Shown here piece after piece: positions 3,933-51,876 of a stretch of DNA of 64,000 nucleotides (position 1 is the first letter of the stretch; every line of letters starts with the position of its first letter). Made by a program: the position numbers and the translations under genes. The stretch is from Psychrobacter namhaensis (GTDB lineage Bacteria; Pseudomonadota; Gammaproteobacteria; Pseudomonadales; Moraxellaceae). Under the pieces are notes generated by a model. The model was not told where the DNA came from. It saw only the letters and a program-made list of their open reading frames with translations, and ran no database searches. The DNA lies in contig NZ_JABASS010000009.1 of assembly GCF_016107545.1 (NCBI RefSeq), forward strand, positions 1-64,000. Direction: 5' to 3'.

Positions 3933-4006
3933 ATACTAATGTGAAAGCCTCCAAAGATTAGCGCCAATTGTTAAAATAGGTTTTTACAGAGAATTACACT
4001 TTATCC

Positions 4007-5197: not shown

Positions 5198-5447
5198 GGC
5201 ATGCGTAGGGTGTTAAAGCACCAGATTTGCGCGTTTAGACATATTCTTTTACCTATCCATGAATAAGTTTTATCAACCACATAGGATGACAAAATAAAAA
5301 TGATACGTTATGTATTGAAATAATTATAGAAATGCGTTACTAATAGAGCACGTTAAATACGAATCTATCAAACGGGCATAGGATGTGACCGTCTTACCAT
5401 CATCACCCCATCTTAACCGTTACCTGCTATTGCTAAAGGATTAGCTT

Positions 5448-7151
5448 ATGAACACCACCTCTCAAACCTCTACTGTTACCGATGCAGAGTCTTCAGTCAC
5501 ACCAAAAAATTATACCGATTATTATAATAATTTCGACATGAATACACTGTTGATGGAAATCTTTGGTGAGCACTTAGACGATCGCCTAAATGCCTATATG
5601 GCTTGTTGTGGCCGTCATGTACGCGATGGCCGCGCTGATAGTATCGCGCTGGTACATGAAGATACAGCGGGCAATGTGACGCGCATGAGCTTTGCTGAGC
5701 TGGATCAGGCAAGTGCGCAAGTTGCCAACTTATTACAGTCTTATGGCGTAAAAGCGGGCGATAAGGTGGCGACCATGCTACCACGTACGCCTGAGCTGTT
5801 GACCGTCGTACTAGCAATATGGCGTATCGGCGCCGTGTATCAGCCACTATTTACCGCTTTTGGCTACGACTCTATCAAGTACCGGATGGACAAGGCCGAT
5901 ACCAAAGTCGTCTTTACCAATGTCGATAATCGCGGCAAATTTGAAGACTTGGCTGAGCAAACCAAAATGGTATTGGTAGGCGAGGCAGCAGACGCGCAAA
6001 CATGGGGCGATGATCACTATAGCCAGTCAGTGGCTGCACAGTCGCAGACTATAGAGCCTGTATTGCTCGATACTGATGCACCATTTTTGCAGATGTTTAC
6101 CTCGGGTACGGTGGGGAAATCTAAAGGCGTCAGCGTCCCATTGGCAGCGTTACCTGCCTTTTATTTGTATATGCGTTATGCCATTGACTTACGCGAAGAG
6201 GATCACTATTGGAACATGGCAGATCCAGGCTGGGCATATGGGTTGTACTATGCCATCACAGGGCCGTTATTATTGGGCGTCACTACTTATTTCAATGAAG
6301 CTGGGTTTGATGCGACCAATACTCGTGACTTTATGGCGCGTCATCAGATTACCAACTTGGCCTCTTCACCAACCGCGTTTCGCATGATGAAGTCTAGTGG
6401 CGTATTTGAGAACGTTCATGACGAGGCCAATGCCAAGCTGTCGCTACGCTGCGCCAACTCAGCAGGAGAGACTTTAAATACCGAGGTAGTTAATTGGGTT
6501 GAAACCTACTTAAACTGCAAGGTGTGTGATCAGTACGGTCAAACAGAAACTGGCATGACGTGCTGTGAGCATCATGCACTGGCACATGACTGTCCAGTGG
6601 GTTCGATGGGTATGGCGCTACCTGGGCATACACTCGTGGTACTAGATGATGATTTGAATGTGTTGCCTGATGGGGAGCAAGGGCAGTTGGCCGTTGTGGT
6701 CAGTCAATCGCCCGCGTTTTATTTCCGTGGTTATAGCTGGAATGAAAAGCAGGCGTTTGCTGGTGACTACTACCTAACGGGTGATGTGGTCGAGCGTCAT
6801 AGTGATGGCAGCTACTGGTTCTCAGGGCGCGATGACGATATTATCATTACAGCAGGCTACCGCGTGGGTCCCACCGATGTCGAAAACACCGTGTTAGAGC
6901 ATGAGGCAGTCGCAGAGTCAGCTGCGGTGGGTGTGCCAGATGAGGTGCGTGGGCATACCATCAAGGCTTATGTGGTACTAAAAGAGGGCATCGTGGGTAG
7001 TGACGAGATTGCTCAGCAAATTCAAGATCTCGTACGCAAACGTTTGTCGACTCATGCTTATCCGCGTGAGGTTGAGTTTGTGGCAGAGTTACCAAAGACA
7101 CCCAGTGGCAAAATTCAGCGCTTTTTACTGCGCAGTTTGTCTGCGGCGTAG
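5448..7151 (+). CDS. AMP-forming acyl-CoA synthetase
   Basis: ANL-superfamily ligase of 567 aa that activates a carboxylic acid to acyl-AMP and then acyl-CoA. The phosphate-binding loop is TSGTVGKSKGV (about 217-227). The QYGQTETG motif (about 364) and TGDVV ... SGRDDDII hinge segment follow, and the C-terminal catalytic lysine is in PKTPSGK. It resembles the acetyl/medium-chain acyl-CoA synthetase group; the exact chain length cannot be read. AAGGA eight bases before the ATG supports the start. The SDR gene begins 37 bases after its stop, suggesting a two-gene operon for activating and oxidising a fatty or aromatic acid. Confidence 0.88.
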   Translation: MNTTSQTSTVTDAESSVTPKNYTDYYNNFDMNTLLMEIFGEHLDDRLNAYMACCGRHVRDGRADSIALVHEDTAGNVTRMSFAELDQASAQVANLLQSYGVKAGDKVATMLPRTPELLTVVLAIWRIGAVYQPLFTAFGYDSIKYRMDKADTKVVFTNVDNRGKFEDLAEQTKMVLVGEAADAQTWGDDHYSQSVAAQSQTIEPVLLDTDAPFLQMFTSGTVGKSKGVSVPLAALPAFYLYMRYAIDLREEDHYWNMADPGWAYGLYYAITGPLLLGVTTYFNEAGFDATNTRDFMARHQITNLASSPTAFRMMKSSGVFENVHDEANAKLSLRCANSAGETLNTEVVNWVETYLNCKVCDQYGQTETGMTCCEHHALAHDCPVGSMGMALPGHTLVVLDDDLNVLPDGEQGQLAVVVSQSPAFYFRGYSWNEKQAFAGDYYLTGDVVERHSDGSYWFSGRDDDIIITAGYRVGPTDVENTVLEHEAVAESAAVGVPDEVRGHTIKAYVVLKEGIVGSDEIAQQIQDLVRKRLSTHAYPREVEFVAELPKTPSGKIQRFLLRSLSAA

Positions 7152-7188
7152 ACACAATCAACTCAAAATAAAAAAGTAAGGAACAATC

Positions 7189-7980
7189 ATGCAAATTGAA
7201 CAACACAGCTTTTTGGTGACAGGTGGCGCATCGGGTCTTGGCGAGTCAGTGGTACGTGCCATCATTGCTCAAGGCGGCAACGTCGTTATCGCTGATCTCA
7301 ATGACTCTGCTGGGCAAGCATTGGTCGATGAGCTGGGTGATAGAGCGCGTTTTGTCCGTTGTGATGTGACCCGTGGCGATGAGGTGCAAGCGGCAATTGA
7401 GATGGCTGAAAAAGCGTTTGGCGGCCTGCAAGGGTCGGTTAATTGCGCTGGTATCGCCGTCGTGCAAAAGCTGCTGGATCGTGACAATAATCCAGCGGAT
7501 CTTGAGTCCTTTAGTCGCGGGGTGAATATCAACCTTGTGGGTTCTTTTAACGTCGCGCGTTTGGTCGCGGCCAGTATTGCGAAGCGTGTGGCTCATGATA
7601 GTCATGCAGGAGCCACTGTAGAAAATAATATCGATCAGGGTGTCATTATTAACACAGCTTCTATCGCAGCCTTTGATGGTCAAGTGGGTCAAGCCAGTTA
7701 TGCTTCGTCCAAAGCGGGCGTGGTTGGTTTGACCTTACCGCTTGCTCGTGAGCTTGCGCGTCATGGTATCCGTGTCATGACCATCGCACCAGGTGTCTTT
7801 GCTACTCCGATGATGCAAAGTATCCCTGAAAAAGCGCGTGAGCAATTAGAGGCAGGTGTGCCTTATCCTAAGCGTTTAGGTAATCCAAATGAATTTGCCA
7901 AATTGGTCACCCACATCATTGACAATGCTTATCTAAACGGTGAGGTTATTCGTCTAGACGGAGCGATTCGTATGGTGTAG
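7189..7980 (+). CDS. SDR oxidoreductase, 3-hydroxyacyl-CoA dehydrogenase type-2-like
   Basis: Classical short-chain dehydrogenase of 263 aa. The NAD(P)-binding TGGASGLG is at residues 11-18, NCAG near 85, and the catalytic Ser (INTASIAAF) with YASSK follow. An Asp at the end of beta-2 (VVIADL) favours NAD(H). The sequence, including GVFATPM and the C-terminal NGEVIRLDGAIRM, resembles the 3-hydroxy-2-methylbutyryl/3-hydroxyacyl-CoA dehydrogenase type 2 (HSD17B10-like) group. It lies 37 bases after the acyl-CoA synthetase with its own AAGGA site, consistent with joint action on an acyl-CoA. The substrate assignment is inference. Confidence 0.85.
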   Translation: MQIEQHSFLVTGGASGLGESVVRAIIAQGGNVVIADLNDSAGQALVDELGDRARFVRCDVTRGDEVQAAIEMAEKAFGGLQGSVNCAGIAVVQKLLDRDNNPADLESFSRGVNINLVGSFNVARLVAASIAKRVAHDSHAGATVENNIDQGVIINTASIAAFDGQVGQASYASSKAGVVGLTLPLARELARHGIRVMTIAPGVFATPMMQSIPEKAREQLEAGVPYPKRLGNPNEFAKLVTHIIDNAYLNGEVIRLDGAIRMV

Positions 7981-8586
7981 TGCTTTTTAAGCACTGCCAA
8001 CTCCCTTTGAGTTTATCTTTCTTGTCTTATTCAACACTTTTGTACAAAGACTGACATAGCGCTTTGAGATATTATGATTAACTGCCGCACGGGTTAATGA
8101 TAAAGCTCCAAGCCTGTGTCATTTTTTATACGCAGCTTCTTACCTATACACACAGTTTTTTACCTATAAGCGCCAAACTGCTATCCAAAGTTTTTGGTAG
8201 ATCTTCTCTTAAATCAACGCTTTATTTTCTCTATAGTATTGAGTAAACCTTCTTCTCACTGTTTTTAATTTATACTCTTGAAATACCTGCTTAATGTGCC
8301 TATTAATGTTCTATGATGATATCATCACAATTAGTAGGGGTTTATGTGCCATGAAACAAGGCTATGCAACAAGACCACGAAGCAATGGTTTTTTTGCTAC
8401 TTACTAATAAGTCATTGTTTATGGTTGACAGCTTATATAGATGAGTTGAAATCTGGCACGTTACCCCCTATATAGATAACAGCTAATAGTGATGGATACT
8501 TGTGAAAATTGGTGATAAATACCGTATTTCCAGTATCTTATTTCATATCAACTGACTAAAAATACTAATTATAAAAGGACACCATA
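7981..8586 (+). other. 606-base gap upstream of clpB
   Basis: I see no convincing gene here. The region is AT-rich. A sigma32-like promoter for clpB lies at 8445-8473 (separate entry). A weaker CTTGAAA at 8277-8283, with CCTATTA 15 bases later, could be a second heat-shock promoter but is a poorer match. Confidence 0.5.
8445..8473 (+). promoter_or_regulatory. candidate sigma32 (heat-shock) promoter of clpB
   Basis: GTTGAAA at 8445-8451, a 12-base spacer, and CCCCCTATAT at 8464-8473 approximate the heat-shock consensus CTTGAAA / CCCCAT-T. It would start transcription about 105 bases before the clpB ATG. ClpB is a classic sigma32 regulon member, so the location fits. Prediction from sequence only. 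Confidence 0.55.
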
Positions 8587-11184
8587 ATGAGGTTCGAAAA
8601 GTTTACCCAAAAACTGCAATCTGCCATTCAAGAAGCACAAAGCCTAGCGTTAGGCCGCGATCATACCGGCATAGATCCTGTGCACCTGCTGGCTGTATTG
8701 CTACAAGATGAATCCAACTTGTCTATTTGCCAACAAGCGGGCGCCTCTATCCCAGCGTTAAAGAATGGCGTGGCAAAGGCATTGGACAATCAAGCAACGA
8801 TTAGCGAGCCGACAGGCGACGTTAATTTAAACCCAAACTCAGTAAAAATTCTAAACTTAGCAGATCGCCAAGCACAAAAAGAAGGTGATGATTTTATTGC
8901 TACTGAGTGGGTGATGTTGGCACTCGCTGAGCAAGGCGAAACCAAAAAAATATTTGAAAGTGCTGGCGTGACGGCGAGCAAATTAAAAGCGGTCATTGAG
9001 CAATTGCGTGGTGATGAGACAGTGAACAATCAAAATGCTGAAGATCAGCGAGATGCGTTGAATAAATATACGATCAACCTGACTGAGCAGGCGGAGCAGG
9101 GAAAGCTTGACCCCGTGATTGGCCGTGACGAAGAGATTCGCCGTACCATTCAAGTACTCTCCCGTCGTACCAAAAACAATCCTGTGCTGATTGGGGAGCC
9201 AGGCGTTGGTAAAACGGCTATCGTTGAAGGCTTGGCACAAAAAATCATCAATGGCGATGTACCCGAAGGTTTACGCCGTAAAGAAGTGCTGTCGCTTGAC
9301 TTAGGGGCATTGATTGCGGGCGCAAAATTCCGCGGTGAGTTTGAAGAGCGTCTCAAAGCAGTGCTCAGCGACTTGGCCAAGCAAGAAGGCAATGTCATCT
9401 TGTTCATTGATGAGCTGCACACGATGGTTGGGGCTGGCAAGTCAGATGGCGCGATGGATGCGGGCAATATGCTAAAACCAGCGCTTGCTCGTGGTGAGCT
9501 GCATTGCGTTGGTGCCACGACATTGGACGAATATCGCCAATATATCGAAAAAGATGCGGCGCTTGAACGTCGTTTTCAAAAAGTCATGGTCGATGAGCCA
9601 ACAGTTGAAGACACTATTGCGATTTTACGTGGTCTCAAAGAGCGTTATGAGCTGCATCATGGGGTTGATATTCAGGACAGCGCGATTATTGCGGCCGCTC
9701 GTATGAGTCATCGTTATATTACCGATCGTAAGCTACCGGATAAAGCGATTGATTTGATTGATGAGGCAGCCAGCCGCTTACGTATGGAGATGGATAGCAA
9801 GCCTGAAGCATTGGGTAAGCTGGACAGTCGTTTGATTCAGCTGAAAATGCAGCGCGAAGTCTTGAAAAATGAAGAAGACGCGGGCGCACAAGCAGAGCGT
9901 AAAGTGCTCGATGCGCAAATTGAAGAGCTAGAAAAAGAATACGCTGATCTCAACGAGATTTGGCAAGCAGAGAAAGCACTCGTCAAAGGCAGTCAGCAGC
10001 TAAAAGACGAGCTGGATAAAGCGCGTATTGCTTATGATAAAGCCAGTCGTGAAGGCGACTATGAGACCATGAGTAAGCTACAGTACGAGACCATTCCGCA
10101 GTTAGAGCGCCGTATTACGGAGTCTGATCTGGCGGAACAAAAAGAGCAGACAGGTGAAGACAGCTCTGTGAAACTGCTACGTAATAAAGTCACGGACAAT
10201 GAAATTGCTGAAGTGGTTGCCGCAGCGACTGGCATCCCTGTGAGTAAAATGATGCAAGGCGAACGTGACAAGATGCTCGCAATGGAAGAAAAACTCCATG
10301 AGCGTGTGATTGGTCAAGATGAGGCGGTCGAAGCGGTAGCCAATGCGGTACGCCGTAGTCGGGCAGGATTGTCTGATCCCAATCGCCCGTCAGGCTCGTT
10401 CTTATTCTTAGGCCCTACTGGTGTCGGTAAAACGGAGTTGACCAAGTCGCTTGCGAACTTCTTGTTTGATAGTGAAGATGCGATCGTACGTATCGACATG
10501 AGTGAATACATGGAGAAGCATAGCGTCAGCCGCTTGGTGGGTGCGCCTCCAGGGTACGTCGGCTATGAAGAAGGTGGCGCATTAACCGAGGCCGTACGCC
10601 GTAAGCCTTATAGTGTGATTTTGTTTGATGAAGTTGAAAAAGCGCACCCTGATGTGTTCAATATCTTGCTACAAGTATTGGATGATGGCCGCTTAACGGA
10701 CTCACAGGGTCGCGTGGTGGACTTCAAAAATACGGTTATCATCATGACCAGTAATTTGGGTTCGCATAAAATCCAAGAGATGGTTGGTGAAAGCTATGAT
10801 GATATCAAAGCTGAGGTGATGGAGTCGGTGGGGCAGCATTTCCGCCCAGAGTTCGTCAACCGGATTGACGAGATTGTGGTGTTCCATCCGCTTGGTATGT
10901 CACAGATGGCAGGCATCGCTGACATTCAGTTGGATCGATTGCGCAAGCGCTTGCATGAGCGTGAGATGGATATCGAACTATCAGCCGATGCGATGAACAA
11001 GCTGGTGGCGGTCGGCTACGATCCTGTATATGGTGCGCGTCCACTCAAACGTGCCATTCAGCAAGAGATCGAAAACCCATTGTCACTCAAATTGCTGGCG
11101 GGTGATTTTGTCGCCGGTGACATTATCAAAGTCGATGTTGGGGCGGATGATAAGCTGGTTTTTGACAAACTTAGAATGAGCTAA
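8587..11184 (+). CDS. clpB: ATP-dependent protein disaggregase ClpB
   Basis: Hsp100 disaggregase of 865 aa (E. coli ClpB is 857). Working with DnaK/DnaJ/GrpE, it threads aggregated proteins through a hexameric pore. Domains in order: N domain (~1-145); AAA1 with Walker A GEPGVGKT at 203-210, Walker B ILFIDELH and pore loop [12 protein letters not shown]; a coiled-coil M domain (~410-525); AAA2 with GPTGVGKT near 610, pore loop [13 protein letters not shown] and Walker [12 protein letters not shown]; and the C-terminal small domain. AAGGA precedes the ATG by seven bases. A sigma32-like promoter lies upstream and a terminator follows, so it is monocistronic. Confidence 0.97.
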
Positions 11185-39892: not shown

Positions 39893-41044
39893 ATGAGTAT
39901 AGAAAAATTCACCCCAAACTGGATGACCGAAGAGCACCAAATGGTTTATGACAGTGCGCTAAAAATGTTTAAAAGTTGGGAGTCAAAGGATGAGCAGTGG
40001 CGCAAAAACGGCATGATTGATCGCACGGCTTGGGAAGAGGCAGGGGCGATGGGGTTTTTGTGCGCATCAATACCAGAAGCGTATGGCGGCGGCGGCGGTG
40101 ACTTTGGTCATGAAGCGGCGCTTCTTTATGCTCAAGCAGAGGCCAATCAATCAGGTTTTGGTGGGACGGTGCATTCAGGTATTGTTGCCCCTTATATCTT
40201 GGCTCATGGTACAGAAGAGCAGAAAAAAGAATGGCTACCTAAGATGGCAACAGGCGAGTATGTGGCCGCGATTGCTATGACTGAACCTGGGACTGGCTCA
40301 GACCTACAAAATATCAAGACTTACGCCGTAAAAGATGGCGAGGACTATATTATCAATGGTTCAAAAACCTTTATCACCAATGGTCAGCATGCCAATCTGA
40401 TTTTGCTGGCTTGCAAGACGGATCGTGATAAAGGCGCTCAAGGTGTCTCACTTATTGTGGTAGAAACCGATAAAGTGACTGGTTTTGAGCGTGGTCGTAA
40501 TCTCGAGAAGATCGGTATGACCTCACAAGACACCTCGGAGTTGTTCTTCAGTAATGTACGTGTGCCTCAAAAGAACCTTTTGGGTACAGTAGAAGGTATG
40601 GGTTTCATTCAGATGATGCAAGAGCTGCCCCGTGAGCGTTTGATCATTGCCATATCAGGGATTGGTGCAATGAAGCTTGCGATCAATTTAACACTAGATT
40701 ACGTTAAAGGCCGAGAAGCCTTTGGCAAGCCAGTTTGGTCATTCCAAAATACGCGCTTTAAGATGGCAGAGTGTTACGCCGATTATCTTGCTGCTAGCAG
40801 TATGTGTGATGCCGCCATCGATGCTATGTTAGAAGGTAAATTAACCGTTCCTCATGCCTCACTGGTTAAGTACTGGGTGACGCAAAAACAATGTGACGTG
40901 ATTGATGAGTGCGTCCAGCTCTTTGGGGGCTATGGCTACATGACAGAGTATCCAATCGCTCGCTTGTATGCCGATGCTCGAGTACAAAAAATCTACGGTG
41001 GCACCAATGAGATTATGAAAGAGCTGGCGTCACGCTTTATGTAA
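39893..41044 (+). CDS. acyl-CoA dehydrogenase
   Basis: Canonical-length (383 aa) FAD-dependent acyl-CoA dehydrogenase, the first step of beta-oxidation. Motifs: MTEPGTGSDLQNIKT (about 128-142), NGSKTFITNGQHANL, the C-terminal REAFGKPVWSFQNTRF and QLFGGYGYMTEYPIARLYADARVQKIYGGTNEI-type sequence. The catalytic Glu, if as in medium-chain relatives, is in the GGTNEI region. GGAG precedes the ATG. It heads a four-gene operon with thiolase, FadB-like and AMACR-like genes under a divergent TetR gene. Confidence 0.93.
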   Translation: MSIEKFTPNWMTEEHQMVYDSALKMFKSWESKDEQWRKNGMIDRTAWEEAGAMGFLCASIPEAYGGGGGDFGHEAALLYAQAEANQSGFGGTVHSGIVAPYILAHGTEEQKKEWLPKMATGEYVAAIAMTEPGTGSDLQNIKTYAVKDGEDYIINGSKTFITNGQHANLILLACKTDRDKGAQGVSLIVVETDKVTGFERGRNLEKIGMTSQDTSELFFSNVRVPQKNLLGTVEGMGFIQMMQELPRERLIIAISGIGAMKLAINLTLDYVKGREAFGKPVWSFQNTRFKMAECYADYLAASSMCDAAIDAMLEGKLTVPHASLVKYWVTQKQCDVIDECVQLFGGYGYMTEYPIARLYADARVQKIYGGTNEIMKELASRFM

Positions 41045-41148
41045 GTGTTTGCCGCCGTTTTTTGGATAAAGTTAGTACGTTTTATGGTTCGTTGAAAATA
41101 AAATTGCGCTAGTTATTGTTGATTGATAAAAGAAAAAAGGGATTTTTT

Positions 41149-42357
41149 ATGACTGAGACCGCTTACATTTATGAGGCTATCCGTACCCCGCGTGGCAAAG
41201 GAAAAAAGGATGGTTCTTTGTATCAGGCATCACCGACTTGGTTGACGCGTACCTTATTAAAAGAGATGCAGCAGCGTCACCACTTGGACACCAGTTTGGT
41301 TGATGATGTGGTGCTTGGGTGTGTGACACCAGTTGGTGAGCAGGGTTCTGATATTGCACGCATCGCGGTTATCGACGCTGGCTGGGCGCAAAGTGTCGCG
41401 GGTCTCACTTTGTCTCGGTTTTGTGCATCAGGCCTTGAGTCTATCAATTTGGCTGCCGCCAAGGTCATGTCAGGCATGGAGGACATGGTGGTGGCAGGTG
41501 GGGTTGAGTCCATGAGCCGCGTACCGATGGGTTCTGATGGTGGCGCTTGGTATATGGACCCTCGGGTCAATGAAGCGACGCATTTTGTGCCGCAAGGGGT
41601 TGGCGCAGATACCATAGCGACGCTCAAAGGCTTTAGCCGTACTGACGTTGATGCCTTTGCCACCGAGTCGCATCGCCGTGCTGCTAATGCGTGGGAGAAA
41701 GGCTACTACGATAAGTCCGTCGTTCCTGTGACGGATATCAATGGCATGATGCTGTTGGACAAAGATGAAACCATCCGTCCTAACACCAATGTTGAGACGT
41801 TAGCGGGACTTAAACCCTCTTTTATTGTGCCAGGAAAAATGGGCTTTGACAGTGTTATCTTGGACAGATATACCACGATTGAGAACGTTGACCACGTGCA
41901 TCATGCTGGCAATTCTTCGGGTATCGTTGATGGGGCCGCTCTGTGTTTGGTCGGTAGTGCCGCTGCCGGTCAAAAAGCAGGCCTTAAACCACGCGCTAAG
42001 ATCACGATGGCATCAGTGATTGGCTCAGAGCCTGCCATTATGCTGACAGGCCCGACGCCCGCTTGCCAAAAAGCCCTCAAAAAAGCGGGTATGCAAGCTT
42101 CAGATATTGACTTATGGGAGATCAATGAGGCGTTCGCTGCGATACCACTGAATACCGCTGATGATTTTGGACTCTCGCTCGATATCGTCAATGTCAATGG
42201 CGGCGCGATCGCCATGGGTCATCCGCTTGGGGCAACAGGTGCCATGCTTATGACGACTGTCCTTGATGAGTTAGAACGCCGTGACCTAAAAACGGCGATG
42301 ATTACTCTATGTGTGGGCGGCGGTATGGGTATTGCGACGATCATTGAGCGTGTCTAG
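41149..42357 (+). CDS. thiolase (acetyl-CoA C-acyltransferase, FadA-like)
   Basis: 402 aa thiolase, cleaving 3-ketoacyl-CoA to acetyl-CoA and a shortened acyl-CoA. It starts at the ATG at 41149, preceded by AGGGA; the open frame to a TTG at 41116 is unsupported. The acylated Cys lies in [10 protein letters not shown] (about residue 90), the His in GHPLGATGA and the second Cys in TLCVGGGMG. An N-terminal [16 protein letters not shown] is typical of the FadA/FadI type. It lies about 100 bases after the acyl-CoA dehydrogenase and 96 bases before the FadB-like gene. Confidence 0.93.
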
Positions 42358-42453
42358 ATCATTGAGCGCGAACAGGTTGATATGCTTTTATTAGCTTGAT
42401 TTGGTTCAGATTGGAAGAGCATTGTAATTAAGGGACTATTCAAAGGACGAAAC

Positions 42454-44655
42454 ATGACTATAAACAATAGTGTAAAAGATGGGGCGAAAGACAGTGTGGA
42501 TTTAATTAATAAGCTGGAAGGTTTTTCTGCCCAACGTGATGACGATGGCATCGTGACTGTCATCATTGATCAAAGTACGCGCAAAATGAATGTCATCGGT
42601 GAGGGTTTTACCGAGGCGTTTGCGGCGATGACAGACAGCTTTATTAACGATGAGTCTGTGACAGGCTTAATCTTGACGTCAGGTAAAGAGACGTTTGTGG
42701 TCGGTGCAGATATCGACCAACTGTCTACCATCAAAACCGCTGAGCAAGCGTTTGAGTTGGCTGAAGATCTGAAAGGTAGTCTGCGTAAACTTGAGACATC
42801 AGGAAAACCAGTCGTTGCAGCGTTGACAGGGACAGCACTTGGCGGTGGTTTAGAGCTTGCCCTAGCGTGTCATTATCGTATTGCAATCGATGCACCTAAA
42901 ATGAAACTGGGACTGCCTGAAGTCAAATTGGGCTTGCTGCCAGGCGGCGGCGGTACTCAGCGTTTACCTCGCCTAGTCGGTATTCAAGTGGCGCTTGAGC
43001 TGATGACGCAAGGCAAAGAGCTGCGCCCAGCCACTGCTAAAGACATGGGTCTGATTGATACCATCGCCACTGACAAAGTAGATATGCTAAAGCAGGCCAA
43101 AGAATGGATTAAGGCCAATCCAAATGCCCAGCAGCCATGGGACAAAAAAGGCTTTAAAATCCCTGGTGGCGATAGCAAGCATCCTCAGGTAGTGCCAGTA
43201 TTTTCAGTGGCGCCAGCCATGGCCAATCAAAAATCGCACGGTAATTATCCAGCGATTACGCACATCATGTCTTGCGTGTTTGAAGGGTGCCTCGTGGATA
43301 TCGACACCGGTCTTGAGATTGAATCGCGTTACTTTGCAGCTTGTGTGCTCTCTGTTGAATCTAAAAACATGATCAGCACGCTATGGACTCAGCTTAACAA
43401 TATTAAAAAAGGTCAGTCGCGTCCTCAAGGGTTTGAGCGCACGCAAACCAAAAAAGTCGGTATTTTGGGCGCTGGTATGATGGGGGCGGGCATTGCTTAT
43501 GTCACTGCCAAAGCGGGCATTGATGTTGTGCTACTAGATACCGAGATAGCAGGGGCGGAAAAAGGCAAAGCGTACTCTGCTAAGATTCTTGATAAAGCCA
43601 CCAGCCGTCAGCGCGCCACTAGAGAGCAAAAACAAGCGCTATTAGATCGTATTAAGCCAACTTTTTCCTATGACGATTTGGCAGACTGTGACCTTATCAT
43701 CGAAGCGGTATTTGAAAATCGAGACATCAAAGCCAAGTGTACGCAGCAAAGCGAAGCCGTCATTGCTAAAACAGCGGTTTTTGCCTCCAATACTTCCACA
43801 CTGCCGATCACTGGACTGGCAAAAGCCAGTACGCGCCCGAACCAGTTCATTGGTCTGCATTTCTTTTCACCCGTTGATAAGATGCCTTTGGTTGAGATTA
43901 TCATGGGCGAGCAAACCGATGATGCGACTTTAGCCAAAGCCTTTGATTATGTGCTGCAAATTGGCAAGACGCCTATCGTGGTAAATGACAGTCGTGGGTT
44001 TTATACCTCGCGTGTGTTTGGCACGTATGTCTCAGAAGGTATCGCCATGTTAGGCGAGGGCGTTCATCCACGCAGTATCGAAGTGGCTGGCACGAAAGCA
44101 GGGATGCCGATGCCGCCACTGGCGTTACAAGATGAGGTGTCATTGAGTCTTGCGCTACACGTTAGTGAACAGCAGCAATTGGATATGGCCGCAGAAGGAA
44201 AGTCAATTCCTGTACGCCCATCGTATGAGATTCTCAAAACACTGGTAAAAGAGTACAACCGCGCAGGCAAAAAGAGCGGCAAAGGCTTTTATGAGTACTC
44301 AGACAATGGCGATAAACACTTATGGCCTGAATTGACGAAACTATACCCACCAAAAACCGAGCAACCACCGCAGCAGGATTTGGTCGATCGGTTGATGTTC
44401 ATCCAAGCCAATGAATCCGCTAAGTGTTATGAAGAAAACGTCGTACGCTCTGTCGCTGATGCCAATATTGGTTCTATTTTTGGTTGGGGCTTTGCGCCAC
44501 ATCAGGGTGGTACGCTACAGTTTATCAATGCCATGGGAATAGACGCGTTTATTGCGCGTAGTCGTGAGCTTGCTGCGACATACGGGGAGCGTTTCGAGCC
44601 TGCTCAGATTTTGTTAGCAATGGCAGACAAAGGCGAGGTGTTCTCAGATGGCTAA
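42454..44655 (+). CDS. FadB/FadJ-like multifunctional enoyl-CoA hydratase / 3-hydroxyacyl-CoA dehydrogenase
   Basis: 733 aa alpha subunit of the fatty-acid oxidation complex. The N-terminal third is a crotonase-fold hydratase/isomerase (GKETFVVGADID oxyanion region, GGGLELALACHYRI, KLGLLPGGGGTQRLPRL). Residues from ~328 form the NAD-binding domain with GILGAGMMGAGIAYV, and a 3-hydroxyacyl-CoA dehydrogenase core with GLHFFSPVDKMPLVEII. The paired C-terminal helical domains complete the fold. It acts with the thiolase just upstream. The CoA-transferase-like gene overlaps its last 8 bases, so translation is coupled. Confidence 0.94.
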   Translation: MTINNSVKDGAKDSVDLINKLEGFSAQRDDDGIVTVIIDQSTRKMNVIGEGFTEAFAAMTDSFINDESVTGLILTSGKETFVVGADIDQLSTIKTAEQAFELAEDLKGSLRKLETSGKPVVAALTGTALGGGLELALACHYRIAIDAPKMKLGLPEVKLGLLPGGGGTQRLPRLVGIQVALELMTQGKELRPATAKDMGLIDTIATDKVDMLKQAKEWIKANPNAQQPWDKKGFKIPGGDSKHPQVVPVFSVAPAMANQKSHGNYPAITHIMSCVFEGCLVDIDTGLEIESRYFAACVLSVESKNMISTLWTQLNNIKKGQSRPQGFERTQTKKVGILGAGMMGAGIAYVTAKAGIDVVLLDTEIAGAEKGKAYSAKILDKATSRQRATREQKQALLDRIKPTFSYDDLADCDLIIEAVFENRDIKAKCTQQSEAVIAKTAVFASNTSTLPITGLAKASTRPNQFIGLHFFSPVDKMPLVEIIMGEQTDDATLAKAFDYVLQIGKTPIVVNDSRGFYTSRVFGTYVSEGIAMLGEGVHPRSIEVAGTKAGMPMPPLALQDEVSLSLALHVSEQQQLDMAAEGKSIPVRPSYEILKTLVKEYNRAGKKSGKGFYEYSDNGDKHLWPELTKLYPPKTEQPPQQDLVDRLMFIQANESAKCYEENVVRSVADANIGSIFGWGFAPHQGGTLQFINAMGIDAFIARSRELAATYGERFEPAQILLAMADKGEVFSDG

Positions 44656-45754
44656 CAGAGAGTTACCAAACCACGGACAGATGCATGAACAAATGACTGA
44701 CTGTCTGCGAGGGTTACGAGTGGTTGATTTGACTCGTAACCTACCCGGACCTTTTGCCACGCGCCTGCTGGCTGATTTGGGGGCAGATATCATCAAAATC
44801 GAACCCACAAATGGTGACTCCGCCAGAGCTTTTGGTGACTTGTTTACCGCCTTAAATCATGGCAAGACCACCGAAAAACATGATTTTCGTGATGCTAAAG
44901 GTATTGAGGCCATTAAAGCCCATCTTAAAGATGCGGATGTCATGTTAGATAGCTTTCGCCCTGGTGTCCTAAAAGGCATGGGCCTAGACGCCCAAACGCT
45001 GCACGCCATCAACCCAAAGCTGGTGATCGCCTCAATCACAGGGTATGGTGTCACAGACAGCACGATGGAAGCTGAGGGCCGCGTCAATCATGACTGGGCC
45101 AATAAAGCAGGCCATGATATTAACTTTATGGCCATGAGCGGTGTCCTTGATCAATTAAAGACCGCCCAAGGTGAGCAGGCCATGCCGAATGTCCAGTTTG
45201 CTGATTTAGCGGGCGGTAGTGATACGGCAGTGATTGCTATACTTGCTGCTGTATTCGCCGCCCAGCGTACCAAAAAAGGTCGTCATATTGCGATCAGTAT
45301 GACCCATAGCTTATATCAGCACATGGTCATGCCAAAGGCAACCGGCGCACTGGTTGAGAGTCTCACAGGTAAGCGTCCCACGCCGCAGCATGACTTTTTG
45401 GGAGGGGCACTGCCTTGCTACCGTTTATACCAAACTGCCGACCATCGTTATATGGCGGTTGGCTCATTGGAGCTAAAGTTCTGGCAAGGACTGTGCGATG
45501 TGCTGGAGTTGCCAGCGCTTAAAGACGTACACTGGCAACGGGGTGTTATGCCGCACATGATTGAGAGCCAGTCGGCAACCAAAACAATCGCAGAAAAATT
45601 TGCCAGTCAAACGCTGGCCTATTGGCAACAAGTCTTTGCCTCGGTTGATGTCTGCGTGACCCCTGTGCTGAGCTTACATGAAGCCAAAGCGCATCCCTTG
45701 TTTGCCCATCAAGATGAGCATGACGCCACATCCGGATGGCAGCAGATTGTATAA
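44648..45754 (+). CDS. CaiB/BaiF family CoA transferase, alpha-methylacyl-CoA racemase-like
   Basis: 368 aa family III CoA-transferase fold. The N-terminal VVDLTRNLPGPFATRLLADLGADIIKIEP is characteristic, and the catalytic Asp is in QFADLAGGSDTA. The C-terminal half is more like alpha-methylacyl-CoA racemase (AMACR) than formyl-CoA or carnitine CoA-transferases, for example in LADLGAD ... GGSDTAVIAILAAVFAAQ. Racemisation of 2-methylacyl-CoA would let the operon handle methyl-branched chains. The ATG at 44648 overlaps fadB by 8 bases; ATGs at 44681 and 44693 are other possible starts. Confidence 0.85.
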   Translation: MANRELPNHGQMHEQMTDCLRGLRVVDLTRNLPGPFATRLLADLGADIIKIEPTNGDSARAFGDLFTALNHGKTTEKHDFRDAKGIEAIKAHLKDADVMLDSFRPGVLKGMGLDAQTLHAINPKLVIASITGYGVTDSTMEAEGRVNHDWANKAGHDINFMAMSGVLDQLKTAQGEQAMPNVQFADLAGGSDTAVIAILAAVFAAQRTKKGRHIAISMTHSLYQHMVMPKATGALVESLTGKRPTPQHDFLGGALPCYRLYQTADHRYMAVGSLELKFWQGLCDVLELPALKDVHWQRGVMPHMIESQSATKTIAEKFASQTLAYWQQVFASVDVCVTPVLSLHEAKAHPLFAHQDEHDATSGWQQIV

Positions 45755-45818: not shown

Positions 45819-46505
45819 TCATTCAGATAAATGGCTTTTTTCTAAATTCGCCAAAAATGCGGCAAAACCCTCTGCCGCCCGAGCTTCTAAACGGCTGCTG
45901 GTAATCACACGGACCTGATTGCTCCAAGTGATGGCATAGCCTTGGGCCTCAAATTTTTTGACCAAATCCACATCTTCATGACAAGGCAATGGGGCAAAGC
46001 CACCCACCGTAAGATATGCTTCACTGCTAAACATTAAATTTGCGCCGTGAATGTGGCGATGTCCCATACTGTCTTGGTAGTGATTGATATAATCTTGTCG
46101 CGTTTGCGGTGCTAAATGCGCCCAGCTATCCACGCTCACCACACCGCAAATCATATCCGTAGGCTGCTGCGTCATATGGACGATTTGCTGTATCAGCCAG
46201 TCTACCGTTACGATTGAATCTGCGTCTGTGCAGGCAATCCACGTTGCACCTTTTTTGATGGCATGGCGAATACCCATATCTCGCACCCGTCCCACACAGT
46301 GATAATGACAGCATAGGTAATCCACACCTGCGGCTTTGACTAATGCAAGCGTCTCATCGGTGCAACTATCCAGCACCACAAGTGGGTACGCCGTAATGGT
46401 CGGCGGCAGCTGCGTCATGGCTGTCTGAACCGACGTGAGGCAATTGGTCATTGTCATCGCTTCATTATGAGCGGGAATCACAATACCGATTTTTATCTCA
46501 TCCAT
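45819..46505 (-). CDS. family 2 glycosyltransferase
   Basis: 228 aa GT-A fold glycosyltransferase. The N-terminal GIVIPAHNEAMTMTNCLTSV nucleotide-sugar motif, the metal-binding DADSIVTVDWL (about residues 101-111) and CHEDVDLVKKFEAQG (acceptor/catalytic region) are visible. There is no membrane segment, so it is soluble or peripheral. It is the last gene of a minus-strand cluster with a methyltransferase 34 bases upstream. The donor and acceptor are unknown. Confidence 0.87.
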   Translation of the reverse strand: MDEIKIGIVIPAHNEAMTMTNCLTSVQTAMTQLPPTITAYPLVVLDSCTDETLALVKAAGVDYLCCHYHCVGRVRDMGIRHAIKKGATWIACTDADSIVTVDWLIQQIVHMTQQPTDMICGVVSVDSWAHLAPQTRQDYINHYQDSMGHRHIHGANLMFSSEAYLTVGGFAPLPCHEDVDLVKKFEAQGYAITWSNQVRVITSSRLEARAAEGFAAFLANLEKSHLSE

Positions 46506-46539
46506 GTACCACCCATTGTGTTGCTAGCTGTCGTACGCC

Positions 46540-47310
46540 TCATATTAAGTTTTCTTGCATAGCGACTGAATTTGACGTGTTTTGCCAAACGTCTAGTAAA
46601 AAATCGGTATCGATAATCTCACTTTGATGACTAAAAGCCCCTTGCTGAGCGCTCTTATTGTTTATCCCACGCTTTGCTAAATTAAACGCTTGGTGTAAGC
46701 GTTGGTGCACCGTGTCGCCTGTCATCACAAAGCCATCAATGGGGTAGCGCCAATGACAGCACAGTAATGTGCCGCCTATGGCAAGGTTTTGACCGATCCA
46801 AGTGGTCACCGCATCAATCTCGTTTGGGGATAAATAATATAAAATTTCGCTAATGACAACCAAATCAAAGGGTGGTTGACTGACAAGAGGATGGTCTGAT
46901 GAAGGCTCAGATCCTAAAAACGCCTCTTTTAAAGTGAATAGAGCGTTAGGAATCGTCCCTTGAATCACCCTAACATGAGAGGACGCTGACAAGCGTTGAC
47001 TGGCAAGTTGTACCGCATGATGATTACCATCTATACAGACCAATGCCTGACAGCGGTGGGCAAGTAATTCGCTAAAAACGCCATTGCCGCAGCCCAATTC
47101 AATGCCATTGCCATATTTTGCTTGGGGCAGGACCGCCAGACACATATCACGTTTGCGTTTTTCATACCAGCGGGTCTGATATTGCCATGGGTCGGTACTG
47201 TCGTTATATAACGCATCAAAATACGTTGCTGAATAGCTGTCAGACTGGTTGTTAATGTCAGTATCAGTAGTAAGCGTCATTGGCGTTGTCGATTCAGACA
47301 TGTGGTTCAT
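46540..47310 (-). CDS. SAM-dependent methyltransferase (NodS-like)
   Basis: About 256 aa from the ATG at 47310, which is preceded by GGAGG; the open frame reaches 47418. SAM-binding motif I is GIELGCGNGVFSELLA, with VVISEILYYLSP as motif IV/V. The layout resembles the nodulation protein NodS family, N-methyltransferases of chitooligosaccharides, though here the family name only suggests an amino or hydroxyl acceptor. It overlaps the PIG-L gene by 17 bases, so the two are translationally coupled. Together they could deacetylate an N-acetyl group and then methylate the freed amine. Confidence 0.82.
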   Translation of the reverse strand: MNHMSESTTPMTLTTDTDINNQSDSYSATYFDALYNDSTDPWQYQTRWYEKRKRDMCLAVLPQAKYGNGIELGCGNGVFSELLAHRCQALVCIDGNHHAVQLASQRLSASSHVRVIQGTIPNALFTLKEAFLGSEPSSDHPLVSQPPFDLVVISEILYYLSPNEIDAVTTWIGQNLAIGGTLLCCHWRYPIDGFVMTGDTVHQRLHQAFNLAKRGINNKSAQQGAFSHQSEIIDTDFLLDVWQNTSNSVAMQENLI

Positions 47311-48193
47311 ACAAATAAACCTCCCAGAGCTGGCTAATTCTAGCGATGGCTTGCGCCGATAAAATGGGCGGGTTACCCGTACTTTCATCAACGGTGATTT
47401 GGCTTTTAAAACAGGCAATGGCTTGCGTTTTACGCTGTAATTGCTCAGGGGTTAAATCAAGCCTGAGGGCACAGTGCCAAGGAATGCGGCTGTCATCAGG
47501 TTTTGCCCAATGCCATGCCCAAATGAGTGCTTGATAACAGGCCAGATTGTGCTGCTTGGCAAAAGCAGATACCACCTGACCTGTGGCTTCGTGATCAGGA
47601 TGGCCATCGTGAGCAAAGGGTGTCACTAAAATATCGTCAGGCTGAATAATAGCGGCTAATTTTTCGTTAAACGGGGCTTGTTGAGCAAATACATCACCAT
47701 CCGTTAGACCTAGAGTCATAGTCGTGACCTGTTGAGCGATGCCCAATGCTTTTAATGCCGCAAGGCTTTCTTGTGGACGGATGACATTAAGTTTTTGTGG
47801 CGGATAAATCTGCGAGTCTGGATGGCTTTGTGTGCCATTGGTCACATGAATCAAGATGATAGGATTGCCATTAGCCACCAGTTGTTGCAGCATACCGCCG
47901 CAGCCCAAGGTTTCATCATCGGGATGCGGGGCAAAGACACACACACGCTGATGCGGCAAAAAGTTTTGTGCAATATTCAATCGAGGTAAGTCTTGCAGTC
48001 CTTGCCAATTTTGCCAAGCGTCTTGACTGGTGCCATCGCCCTCAATCACACGGTCACCGACAATCGGATGATTGTGTTCAGAGGTGGCCGTATAATCGGT
48101 TACGGTATCGGTACTGACCGCTGCATCATTAACGCTAAATGTTAGGTCAGACCATGCAGGATGTTCTGACATATTGGTGGTTACAGTTGCCAT
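47294..48193 (-). CDS. PIG-L family deacetylase
   Basis: 299 aa zinc-dependent N-deacetylase of the LmbE/PIG-L family. The N-terminal ~75 residues are poorly conserved, followed by VFAPHPDDETLGCGG with the HPDDE motif at 90-94. The second zinc motif HPDHE lies at 198-202 within FAHDGHPDHEATG. Family members remove acetyl from N-acetylglucosamine groups on small molecules or glycolipids. It overlaps the upstream acyl-CoA dehydrogenase gene by 13 bases and the downstream methyltransferase by 17. The specific substrate is unknown. Confidence 0.88.
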   Translation of the reverse strand: MATVTTNMSEHPAWSDLTFSVNDAAVSTDTVTDYTATSEHNHPIVGDRVIEGDGTSQDAWQNWQGLQDLPRLNIAQNFLPHQRVCVFAPHPDDETLGCGGMLQQLVANGNPIILIHVTNGTQSHPDSQIYPPQKLNVIRPQESLAALKALGIAQQVTTMTLGLTDGDVFAQQAPFNEKLAAIIQPDDILVTPFAHDGHPDHEATGQVVSAFAKQHNLACYQALIWAWHWAKPDDSRIPWHCALRLDLTPEQLQRKTQAIACFKSQITVDESTGNPPILSAQAIARISQLWEVYLYEPHV

Positions 48194-49269
48194 ATGTTTT
48201 CCTGTCCATCCGTTAAGTCATCGAGTGTTTCGCTGGCTAAAGTACTTGATAGTTCGCCAATTTTTTGTAAATCAAACGCGCCGTGACTTTGGCGAATAAA
48301 TACAGGCAAATCCGCTGATAGCCTTGCGAAATGGGCATTATCACAAAAGGGTGCTGCGCCCAATGCCAGTCCGACGGTTTCGATGACTTCACGCGCCAAC
48401 TGCTCGACGTTTACTCTTAATTGGCGAATGGCAAGTTCATGCCTGTGTTCTGGTTGGCTGTCTATCAAGTGAGCCACATGGCGAAAATACTGCTGAGTGA
48501 TGGCCAGTGCTGTGCCAATCTGTCCCAGATACATGGCTTTAAAATCGTGCGGTTTATGCTGATACCCTTTTATCAAGTAGGCTGCTATGGCCGTCGTTGC
48601 GCCATACCAGCAAGCAGCTACCCCTGCCGCGCCATGCCAAAAGCCCACGCGTTCTAAATACGCGTTTGCCGTGCCAACATGACTGGCTGCTGCTTGATTG
48701 AACTGTATGGTAGCTGTATCAGTGGCTTGCATGCCGACCGCTTGCCATGCTCCGTTGTCGATCTTGATCTCGTCTTGCTGCATATCCACAACAAGTAATT
48801 GCGATTGTCCATTCTCATCTCGATAAGTCATGAGACCATGATCCACGATATTGGCGCCTGAACACCATGACTTTGAGCCGCTGATTTTGCCTTGTTGATA
48901 ACGTATGGGATCAGGATGACCTTCTGCCGCCCAAATAGCCCATAGCCCTTGTGCCCGCTCGCTATAGCCGACTTCATGTAAAATACTTAGGGCGTCTAAG
49001 TGTGACTCAAACCATTTAGCAATCGTTAAATCAATGCCTGCCACATATGCCAAAACTTGCCAACGCGTTAAGGTGTGTAGGTTTTTCCTGCCACCACTGG
49101 CAGGGTGGGGGATTTTGTCGCTATAAGTGACTAAACGCTTTAAGATGTCGTGCCGCAGTTTATCGGTGATAACCAACGTGTCAATCGTCTGACGATCAGC
49201 GGAGATAATGTCGTCTATAGCGATCTTAATATTTTGTAATAAAGGATTTTTTGCCTCTAACGTTACCAT
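48181..49269 (-). CDS. acyl-CoA dehydrogenase-like flavoprotein
   Basis: 362 aa acyl-CoA dehydrogenase-fold protein, divergent from the two catabolic enzymes elsewhere in the window. The FAD-binding middle domain contains GKISGSKSWCSGANIVDHGLM-type sequence (about 128-148). The C-terminal helical domain ends with RQSHGAFDLQKIG. The usual MTEP-G and GG-G-Y motifs are lost. It heads the four-gene set acyl-CoA dehydrogenase / PIG-L / methyltransferase / GT2, and the otsA stop lies 34 bases upstream. AGGA precedes the ATG. It may desaturate an acyl chain carried on CoA or ACP, or oxidise the cluster product; this is unresolved. Confidence 0.8.
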   Translation of the reverse strand: MVTLEAKNPLLQNIKIAIDDIISADRQTIDTLVITDKLRHDILKRLVTYSDKIPHPASGGRKNLHTLTRWQVLAYVAGIDLTIAKWFESHLDALSILHEVGYSERAQGLWAIWAAEGHPDPIRYQQGKISGSKSWCSGANIVDHGLMTYRDENGQSQLLVVDMQQDEIKIDNGAWQAVGMQATDTATIQFNQAAASHVGTANAYLERVGFWHGAAGVAACWYGATTAIAAYLIKGYQHKPHDFKAMYLGQIGTALAITQQYFRHVAHLIDSQPEHRHELAIRQLRVNVEQLAREVIETVGLALGAAPFCDNAHFARLSADLPVFIRQSHGAFDLQKIGELSSTLASETLDDLTDGQENIWQL

Positions 49270-49303
49270 GGAGATTTCCTAATAATTATTGTGGGTCAGG
49301 CCT

Positions 49304-50938
49304 TTAGACGGTAGCTGGACACTCGTTGGTTGTGTGATGACTTTTGACATCGTATAGATCATCTAAAAAATCTTGCTGCCAAGCGTGTAAATTGTCTTGC
49401 TGTAACCCCTGTAACAACGCCTGATAGCGCTCCTTTCGCTGGGCAAGTGGCATCTCTAAAGCTGTTTTTAAACCGTGTATGATGCTTTTAGGCTGGTGCG
49501 GATCGATAATGACCGCCGCTTGCATTTGTTCAGCCGCCCCTGCATAACGTGATAGCATTAACACACCTGGATTCTCAGGGTTTTGGGCGGCAATGTATTC
49601 TTTGGCGACTAGGTTCATACCATCTTTAAGCGAATTGACCCAACCGATATCGCTGTGCCAAAACGCCCTCATTAGTGCGTCGTGATTTAATACTTTTTCG
49701 CTATACGTAATCGCCTCCCAGTTATTTATAAAATCGTTAGCTTTGTCGTGGGCGCTAAAGCCATCGGTTTTAAACGTAGGCGTTTGCTCCCCACTAGGCA
49801 AAAATTGCTGATTAATACCATGGACGGTTTGTTTGACATTGTCATAAAGCCGGCGATAAATAGGTAGATCTAAGCGGCTAGGGCAGGCAATTTGCAGTAG
49901 TTTTAGCTGGTTTTGATATAGCGGATATTGTTGTAAAAAATAGCGATATGCTGAAAAACGCTCCAATAAACCTTTGGAGTAATCAATTCTATCGACAGCA
50001 ATTATCTGCTGTGCGGCGGGCTTTATGACGTTTTTTTGCTGTGTGTGTTTTACCGTTTGTGAGGGTAGACGTGAAGATGAACGAGTGATCTGCTGCTGGA
50101 TTTTTGCAACATTCACACCGATTGGGTAGGCGTTAATTGCTAAACAGTGCGTGGCGCATAAATCTAGATTGAGCGTTAACTGTACCCCAGAGAATCGGTT
50201 AAACGGGGTAAAGTCTTGACTGTTATATGACTCGTTTAAAGGGCTGTGTTGTAAAAAGCGGCCGTTTAAATAATGCTGAAAGACGGCTATAGCGTTGGTT
50301 TTATCTTGCTGAGTTTGCGTACCCAGTACATCATAATGAGCAAGGTGTTCAATCAATTCAGGGCTTTGGCCAAGTTGCTGCCAAAATGCCAGTGGGGCAA
50401 ATGGAATGTGCAAAAAAAAGCCAATACGATTATTTATCCCTAATTGTCGACAGTAATGCGCCACGCTTAAAAAATGGTAATCATGGACCCAAATCACGTC
50501 ATTCGGCTCAATCACTTTTTTTAGTTGCCTGGCAAAAAGACGGTTTACCGCTTGATAACCTGCATAATCTTGCGGGGCTTGGCTGATTAAATTGGCTTGT
50601 TCGTGCAACAGTGGCCACAGTACATTATTGGCAAATCCGCAGTAAAAATGTTGGTACTGTTTGGTCGTTAGAGCAGTGGTTATATAGGTGACTTTTGAGT
50701 TTGTTCTTTGCCCGTCAGCGTCAGCGCTTGCTAAAGTAGGTGGTTTGCTACTGCTAAACGCATTGGTCGCACAGTCGTTAAAAACATCGACACAAGGATC
50801 TACAATCTTGCCATTCCAGCCCATCCAAATACTTGGATTTTCTATTAATACATCATGCAGTGCTACCGCAAGGCCGCCTGCCATCGGATTGTTGTCGGGC
50901 ATTTTAACCCGATTAGATAAAACGATTAAACGGCTCAT
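49304..50938 (-). CDS. otsA: trehalose-6-phosphate synthase
   Basis: GT20 retaining glycosyltransferase making trehalose-6-phosphate from UDP-glucose and glucose-6-phosphate. It is 544 aa, about 70 longer than E. coli OtsA, with extra segments near residues 55-75 and 280-300 (low-complexity Ser/Lys/Gln). The N-terminal SRLIVLSNRV, VHDYH, VDRIDYSKGLLERF (phosphate/UDP site) and DGMNLVAKEY motifs are conserved. Its ATG overlaps the otsB stop by four bases (ATGA), typical of translational coupling. Together they make the compatible solute trehalose, consistent with the osmolyte transporters elsewhere in the window. Confidence 0.93.
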   Translation of the reverse strand: MSRLIVLSNRVKMPDNNPMAGGLAVALHDVLIENPSIWMGWNGKIVDPCVDVFNDCATNAFSSSKPPTLASADADGQRTNSKVTYITTALTTKQYQHFYCGFANNVLWPLLHEQANLISQAPQDYAGYQAVNRLFARQLKKVIEPNDVIWVHDYHFLSVAHYCRQLGINNRIGFFLHIPFAPLAFWQQLGQSPELIEHLAHYDVLGTQTQQDKTNAIAVFQHYLNGRFLQHSPLNESYNSQDFTPFNRFSGVQLTLNLDLCATHCLAINAYPIGVNVAKIQQQITRSSSRLPSQTVKHTQQKNVIKPAAQQIIAVDRIDYSKGLLERFSAYRYFLQQYPLYQNQLKLLQIACPSRLDLPIYRRLYDNVKQTVHGINQQFLPSGEQTPTFKTDGFSAHDKANDFINNWEAITYSEKVLNHDALMRAFWHSDIGWVNSLKDGMNLVAKEYIAAQNPENPGVLMLSRYAGAAEQMQAAVIIDPHQPKSIIHGLKTALEMPLAQRKERYQALLQGLQQDNLHAWQQDFLDDLYDVKSHHTTNECPATV

Positions 50939-51876
50939 ATAACGTGTCTCATTGGGTTTTTGATAGAATAGGTGTTAGCGTCTGCTAAGTCAGACAGTAG
51001 AGTAAGGTGGCTTTGACAAAAGCTTAAGAAGCTCTCAAGCAATACCCGTACCTCGTGTACACTATGCACATAGTAATGGGCGCACGTTCGCTCATCGCCT
51101 ACTTTAATACCCATGCCCTTTACTGTTTTTTGGAGTGTTTTTACTGTTTTAGCCCCATTTTTGTCTTGCACAGCTATAAAACCTGCCTCATCGGTAATGT
51201 CATCACCAATAAAGATAGGACACAAGTCTTCGCTAACTTGCATATTCTTTAATAAGGTTAAAATCGCTGTCCCTTTATCTGCCCCTTTTGGCATGATTTC
51301 CCACACATATTTCCCTTGTTTCAATGTCCAATTGGAATGATGGTTTAATACTGCTGACATTATGGTATAAGCTGCATCCGCTAAAGTAGGATCACACCGA
51401 TAGTGTAGGGCAATGGAATATGGCTTATTTTCTATCGTGAAATCACGATAAGGCAGACAAGCTTGGATGATGCGCTGCCTGATAGTGGTAAGCTCGGTAG
51501 CATCCACATGCGCAACGCTTATGTGGTCACTATGATTGCCATTACTATTATCAATGTCTTCTTTGCTATCAAAGGCTATTTCTAGCCCATGAGTGGCGGC
51601 AATCGGTAACTGTAGAGGAGACAGCATTTTTTTTGCTTCATCAAGACTGCGTCCTGTGACGATGGCGACGTTAACGCCATGATTTTGTATTTTTTGTAAA
51701 AGTGTCAAGGTTGCGTTTGGAATGGCGCTGTCTTTGGGATTAAGCGTAAAATCCGCCAGCGTGCCATCCATATCCAAGAACAAACAGTAGTGATACTGAT
51801 TAGATAAATAATCAGCAAAGGTGTTGGGCGGGATGTACGATGGCGTACTTATGCTGGGGTTTATTGCAACAGTCAC
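50935..51876 (-). CDS. otsB: trehalose-6-phosphate phosphatase
   Basis: 313 aa HAD-superfamily phosphatase that releases trehalose from trehalose-6-phosphate. Motif I is FLDMDGTLADF (about residues 33-43), motif II is in VAIVTGRSLDEA and motif III is GDDITDEAGF. The C-terminal extension ends in a poorly conserved tail overlapping otsA by four bases. First gene of the minus-strand run otsB-otsA-acyl-CoA dehydrogenase-PIG-L-methyltransferase-GT2. Its promoter should lie in the 51877-52435 gap. Confidence 0.93.
   Translation of the reverse strand: MTVAINPSISTPSYIPPNTFADYLSNQYHYCLFLDMDGTLADFTLNPKDSAIPNATLTLLQKIQNHGVNVAIVTGRSLDEAKKMLSPLQLPIAATHGLEIAFDSKEDIDNSNGNHSDHISVAHVDATELTTIRQRIIQACLPYRDFTIENKPYSIALHYRCDPTLADAAYTIMSAVLNHHSNWTLKQGKYVWEIMPKGADKGTAILTLLKNMQVSEDLCPIFIGDDITDEAGFIAVQDKNGAKTVKTLQKTVKGMGIKVGDERTCAHYYVHSVHEVRVLLESFLSFCQSHLTLLSDLADANTYSIKNPMRHVI

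Follow-up and report, generated by a model that had tools for sequence, protein, structure and literature searches.

A trehalose-linked four-gene cassette of Psychrobacter and other bacteria as a candidate pathway to an amino-sugar stress protectant

In the current study, we analyzed a 64,000-nucleotide stretch of the Psychrobacter namhaensis contig NZ_JABASS010000009.1 (positions 1 to 64,000; hereafter, the window) and characterized a six-gene operon in it, in which the trehalose genes otsB and otsA are followed by genes for a flavoenzyme of the acyl-CoA dehydrogenase (ACAD) fold, a PIG-L N-deacetylase, a NodS-like methyltransferase (MT), and a GT2 glycosyltransferase. The last four genes make up a cassette that is older and is conserved independently of otsBA, and this cassette is real, widespread, co-inherited, and stress linked. 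We put at roughly one in two the probability that the operon is devoted to stress protectants, with OtsA and OtsB making trehalose and the quartet making a small amino-sugar glycoside. The genes, all but the flavoenzyme named from Pfam and NCBIfam profile matches, are as follows.

50935..51876, minus strand: otsB, trehalose-6-phosphate phosphatase; GTG start; PF02358 at 102.8 bits, and TIGR00685 (trehalose-6-phosphate phosphatase, T6PP) at 121.8 bits, above its cut-off of 68.05
49304..50938, minus strand: otsA, GT20 trehalose-6-phosphate synthase of a divergent form; PF00982 (the GT20 domain) at 289.6 bits
48181..49269, minus strand: ACAD-fold flavoenzyme (ACAD), from its fold, profile, and loss of glutamate probably a group-D-type monooxygenase and not an acyl-CoA dehydrogenase
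47294..48193, minus strand: PIG-L (LmbE, CE14) N-deacetylase (PIGL); PF02585 at 91.6 bits
46540..47310, minus strand: NodS-like S-adenosylmethionine (SAM) methyltransferase (MT), with the start set at the ATG at 47310, which has GGAGG in front; PF05401 (NodS) at 43 bits, above 24
45819..46505, minus strand: small soluble GT2 glycosyltransferase of GT-A fold; PF00535 at 49 bits

The first-pass annotation of this DNA had described six minus-strand genes with overlaps of 4, 13, and 17 bases and short gaps, and this description is confirmed. Its coordinates are exact, the order is otsB-otsA-ACAD-PIGL-MT-GT2, the overlaps are those of otsB/otsA (4 bases), ACAD/PIG-L (13), and PIG-L/MT (17), and the otsA-ACAD and MT-GT2 gaps are both 34 bases long. 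The six genes are likely to form one transcript, a prediction that we make because no promoter-like match lies inside the two 34-base gaps and the number of promoter-like sites across the operon region is at shuffle level. A separate fatty-acid degradation set (acyl-CoA dehydrogenase, thiolase, FadJ-like protein, and class III CoA-transferase) occupies positions 40595-45754 of the plus strand and ends just past the GT2 gene; it adjoins the cassette in few relatives only.

A scan of genome contigs, for which the closer relative set was used (a more diverse alignment proved unsuitable), recovered at least 482 relatives of the cassette, and the best 80, from named genomes, were analyzed. The flavoenzyme and the PIG-L protein are present in all 80 loci, MT is present in 78, and GT2 is present in 74; two of the cases with a missing member sit on short or cut contigs. 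Overlapping junctions recur among these loci more than chance would allow: ACAD-PIGL is at -13 in 39/80 and at -4 in 29/80, PIGL-MT is at -4 in 34/78, and MT-GT2 is at -4 in 52/74. Pairwise distances of the four proteins also correlate (r 0.93-0.96 over 73 loci), a figure to which shared species ancestry contributes. Whether the four genes are kept together in other genomes had been chosen beforehand as a test that could overturn the idea of a functional set, and the 80 loci strongly show that they are. The proposal that the genes behave as one co-inherited unit is likewise upheld by their order, their overlaps, their agreement in distance, and their co-occurrence with otsA (described below).

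The flavoenzyme was found in 34 of 398 sampled Pseudomonadota genomes (E <= 1e-20); 20 loci were fetched from those genomes, and almost all of them carry further members of the quartet. Relatives of the flavoenzyme also reside on plasmids of Acinetobacter, Pandoraea, Cupriavidus, Comamonas, Legionella, Paracoccus, Methylobacterium, Bradyrhizobium, and Kitasatospora, and most or all of the quartet is present at the plasmid loci that were opened. The Kitasatospora plasmid locus (GC 74%), which takes the co-inheritance across phyla, has annotated ACAD, PIG-L, and MT genes and an unannotated stretch at the place expected for GT2. The L104 contig, whose label reads Streptomyces cinereus JCM 3040, was set aside as evidence of spread to Actinomycetota, having a GC content of 44% and falling in the Psychrobacter clade; it carries the six-gene operon, and the record is probably contaminated or mislabelled. 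Two variants deserve mention. A second PIG-L-type gene lies 3' of GT2 in L127, L134, L146, L147, L150, L152, L154, and L196, giving a five-gene version in part of a glgX-linked Pseudomonas clade, and a divergent relative (L060, ca. 1-7800, genome G171) adjoins apparent CRISPR-associated genes and repeat-derived reading frames.

Within Psychrobacter, the cassette and otsA come and go together. The genus sample comprised 100 genomes, with ACAD present in 45; in the 80 genomes tested for both, otsA was found in 33 of the 34 that have the cassette and in none of the 46 that lack it (Fisher p = 1e-21, a value that overstates independence, since the compared genomes share kinship). This pattern shows gain or loss as a single block. 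A close relative of the operon, at 82% identity, occurs in one genome of the same genus, and the genus loci that were fetched and long enough contain all six genes in the same order between variable outer flanks, with two exceptions. In L045, a contig edge interrupts the operon; in L071 (genome G275, 8445-10138), otsBA is absent and the ACAD frame is shortened at its start (272 residues). The latter locus looks as if the front of the operon had been deleted, and G275 is the sole sampled cassette genome without otsA. The window otsA is the only GT20 gene in its genome. Its product may be divergent or contain insertions, because it scores 426.8 bits against the NCBIfam OtsA equivalog, below the cut-off of 564.85, in a match split into two stretches. 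Psychrobacter OtsA (window 49304-50938) matches its models in several stretches, and its acceptor specificity may be of interest.

In the wider set, trehalose genes lie within 10 kb of the cassette in 41 of the 80 loci, and they belong to unrelated routes. The otsBA pair is upstream and on the same strand in Psychrobacter, and downstream and on the opposite strand in Acinetobacter; in Comamonas, otsA comes before and otsB after the quartet. One Pseudomonas clade has glgA-treZ-malQ-treY-DUF2934-glgX beside the cassette, Legionella has an otsB-GH65 pair, Paracoccus has treZ, and two further loci from the phylum sample have otsB-otsA and treZ-treY. Labels for TreY, TreZ, GlgX, and GlgA come from reading the sequence together with alpha-amylase domains, and TreY at these positions was confirmed by TIGR02401 in three phylum-sample genomes (G701, G595, and G565). 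Because the trehalose-linked loci fall in separate branches of the concatenated four-protein tree, the link arose, or was kept, more than once. Taking OtsA, TreY, or TreS over its cut-off as a trehalose route, at least one route is encoded in 31 of 33 cassette genomes and in 10 of 20 genomes that lack the cassette but belong to the same order (Fisher p = 4e-4); the comparison within the order is weaker (10/11 versus 10/20, p = 0.05), and the sets are unmatched in genome-size make-up.

Other neighbors also speak of stress. In a second Pseudomonas clade, two DNA-repair genes flank the cassette, ligD directly upstream and ku downstream, and katE is found in several Acinetobacter loci; LigD, Ku, catalase, GH77 and alpha-amylase-type enzymes, a phospholipase D-type synthase, and DUF2934 were all confirmed among the neighbors by Pfam. 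The cassette is embedded in the stress islands of Pseudomonas that hold trehalose/glycogen genes, Ku/LigD, and catalase, with either glgX as its neighbor or ligD and ku on its two sides. Stress islands also occur on plasmids of clinical and environmental Acinetobacter (L077 and related loci), with a long catalase gene, DUF421, a major facilitator superfamily (MFS) gene, xseAB, otsBA, and the quartet. The trehalose linkage suggested at first pass, for which co-occurrence with otsAB was checked, therefore proves strong but not universal, because ligD and ku flank the cassette in many Pseudomonas genomes; this clade speaks against a strict requirement for trehalose genes nearby.

The flavoenzyme had been described as a noncanonical acyl-CoA dehydrogenase, and the ACAD fold and the noncanonical character stand: the AlphaFold model (predicted local distance difference test [pLDDT] of 90) has a template-modeling (TM) score of ca. 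0.7 to ACADs, the only ACAD domain that Pfam recognizes is the middle one, whose 26.8 bits fall short of the cut-off of 33.3, and the ACAD C-terminal domain was found in 1 of 38 relatives. It is probably not a true acyl-CoA dehydrogenase. In an alignment with canonical ACADs encoded in this genome (the L216 row, an off-target thiolase frame, was left out), an RQSH motif takes the place of the EGT-site glutamate, no glutamate occupies the isovaleryl-type position either, and two flavin-binding stretches, RxQFG and GGxGY, are absent. Matches to the fold include DszC, TdsC, DnmZ, and MAB_4123 as well as true ACADs, and the best matches to the sequence profile are DszC, TdsC, and MsuC. Because the profile favors these enzymes and because the glutamates and flavin-binding stretches are lost, we hold with moderate confidence that the ACAD-like protein is a putative oxygenase-like flavoenzyme. 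It has the features of the group D flavin monooxygenases (fold and profile similarity, a CSG motif, and no catalytic glutamate), of which the fold does not discriminate from ACADs. Members of that group take reduced flavin from a reductase and activate oxygen. Those enzymes (DszC, TdsC, MsuC, DnmZ, and KijD3) share the fold, a CSGA motif after GxK, and the absence of the ACAD glutamate; the cassette enzyme differs from them in its N-terminal domain, which is shorter, and is only ca. 15% identical. DnmZ and KijD3 oxidize amino sugars, and amino-sugar nitrososynthases are among the group D enzymes.

The motifs of the deacetylase and of the methyltransferase are intact. In PIG-L, the only PIG-L match in its genome, PHPDDE (P89-E94) and residues D196, H198, D200, and H201 (DGHPDH) are invariant in 29 relatives of the close set, in keeping with family CE14. 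Its nearest solved relative is diacetylchitobiose deacetylase (E = 4e-17), and it falls below the NCBIfam cut-offs for BshB1 (56.7/182.5), BshB2 (43.1/195.25), MshB (15.2/224.35), and Mca; with diacetylchitobiose deacetylase and MshB/BshB it shares the domain and catalytic motif but not the gene context. The methyltransferase matches PDB 4isc at E = 2e-73 and the solved NodS 3ofj at E = 3e-24, has an ExGCxxG-type SAM motif, shares the DDPW...E motif with NodS, and aligns with NodS over 174 profile positions. PDB 4isc is a direct member of the family, whose entry names the molecule only "Methyltransferase" and for which we found no assigned function. Judged by its sequence, MT is a true NodS relative, and "NodS-like" is the right name because it scores 58.9 bits against the NCBIfam NodS equivalog, whose cut-off is 300. 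GT2, at 228 residues, is modeled (AlphaFold pLDDT 95) as a single compact GT-A domain that lacks additional membrane helices; structural searching returned GT-A fold matches, and D94/D96, HxHGAN, and E177-D178 are invariant in 31 relatives. A role in defense was rejected, as PADLOC gave only a methyltransferase-domain match (mad2).

How might these enzymes work together? We propose that, while OtsA and OtsB make trehalose, GT2 would transfer an N-acetylhexosamine (probably N-acetylglucosamine [GlcNAc] from UDP-GlcNAc) onto a small acceptor to give an N-acetylhexosaminide, from which PIG-L would strip the acetyl group. The freed amine would then be N-methylated by the NodS-like enzyme, and the flavoenzyme would oxidize the product, most likely by oxygenating the amine or a neighboring carbon, as sugar nitrososynthases do. 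Trehalose may be either a partner protectant or the acceptor. This order of steps would follow the logic of Nod factor synthesis and the precedent of the amino-sugar nitrososynthases; the donor and acceptor, the site of methylation, the kind of oxidation, the product, and the protective role are likewise inferred.

The parallel with Nod factor biosynthesis (nodC, nodB, nodS, and nodA) had been drawn at first pass. Both pathways would run from a GT2 enzyme through an N-deacetylase to an N-methyltransferase, and this logic, with the amino-sugar tailoring that it implies, is supported by the match of MT to NodS and by the invariant PIG-L motifs. The echo of NodC/NodB is a functional parallel only (the kinship is with NodS): the cassette deacetylase is PIG-L (CE14), whereas that of the Nod pathway is NodB (CE4). 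The cassette also differs in its GT2, a short protein without a match to any chitin-oligosaccharide synthase model, and in its additional flavoenzyme, which is always present. No NodA-like acyltransferase was found in the cassette or recognized among its recurring neighbors.

Several points weigh against a protectant operon of this kind. The donor and acceptor of GT2 are not readable from its fold, and the proposed stress function is read from neighboring genes rather than from phenotypes. Classical ACADs score as well structurally as monooxygenases do, so that fold alone cannot separate the two activities, and, unlike the group D monooxygenases, the flavoenzyme has no reductase gene beside it in the cassette (reductase partners elsewhere were not sought). 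Trehalose genes are absent from the 10-kb flanks of about half of the loci sampled, and cassette genomes G497 and G566 have no trehalose route over the cut-offs.

Among the alternatives, it is conceivable, if unlikely, that trehalose or its phosphate is itself the acceptor or precursor, so that the cassette yields a trehalose-derived aminoglycoside, either by attaching a methylated amino sugar to trehalose or by converting an analogue of it. Unrelated trehalose routes are linked in separate lineages, one of them having an operon in which the quartet lies between otsA and otsB, and Psychrobacter otsA was never seen without the cassette in the 80 genomes tested for both. However, G275 retains the quartet without otsA, many Pseudomonas cassettes accompany ligD/ku with the trehalose genes elsewhere, and trehalose genes are general stress genes whose linkage could reflect shared regulation only. 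The product might instead belong to the cell envelope, with GT2 charging polyprenyl phosphate or a lipid and the others tailoring the sugar before it enters lipopolysaccharide, capsule, or a glycolipid. Profile relatives of GT2 do include polyprenyl-phosphate glycosyltransferases and exopolysaccharide enzymes, and cardiolipin-synthase-like genes occur near some Pseudomonas loci; nevertheless, the compact GT2 model without extra membrane helices, the lack of a flippase, ligase, acyltransferase, or transporter belonging to the cassette, and the fact that an MFS gene follows only in some Acinetobacter leave this explanation with a rather low probability.

The acylated, N-methylated glycoconjugate first imagined, in which ACAD would desaturate or process an acyl chain, drew on the ACAD fold and on the fatty-acid degradation genes just downstream on the other strand. 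It is not supported, and we regard it as very improbable: the catalytic glutamate is gone at both known positions, the profile is of monooxygenase type, the cassette has no acyltransferase of the NodA kind or otherwise, and those downstream genes stand beside it in few loci. Least probable of all is a low-molecular-weight thiol or redox cofactor of the bacillithiol/mycothiol type, with PIG-L providing the amino-sugar core. In its favor, PIG-L has weak matches to the BshB1 and MshB models, and oxidative-stress genes, katE among them, are plentiful at the loci; however, no cysteine ligase of the BshC/MshC type was recognized among the recurring neighbors, and the glycosyltransferase is of GT2 rather than of the GT4 type of BshA/MshA.

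We found no paper on the quartet or its product, nor one tying it to the Pseudomonas stress islands, in open-access full text (subscription papers were outside the scope), so that no product is assigned, in the open-access literature searched, to a set of four enzymes for which a single genome collection holds 482 or more relatives. One tentative possibility, which we consider somewhat doubtful, is that the cassette defines an undescribed class of bacterial stress metabolite, a glycoside of an N-methylated, N-oxygenated amino sugar that is made from trehalose or in parallel with it, and that the cassette has spread horizontally, on both chromosomes and plasmids, in Pseudomonadota and in some Actinomycetota. 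Because strains of Acinetobacter baylyi and Pseudomonas putida carry the cassette, its function is directly testable, and one enzyme of the MT family already has a crystal structure (4isc). Should the cassette indeed make a protectant, trehalose would represent just one half of a common stress program.

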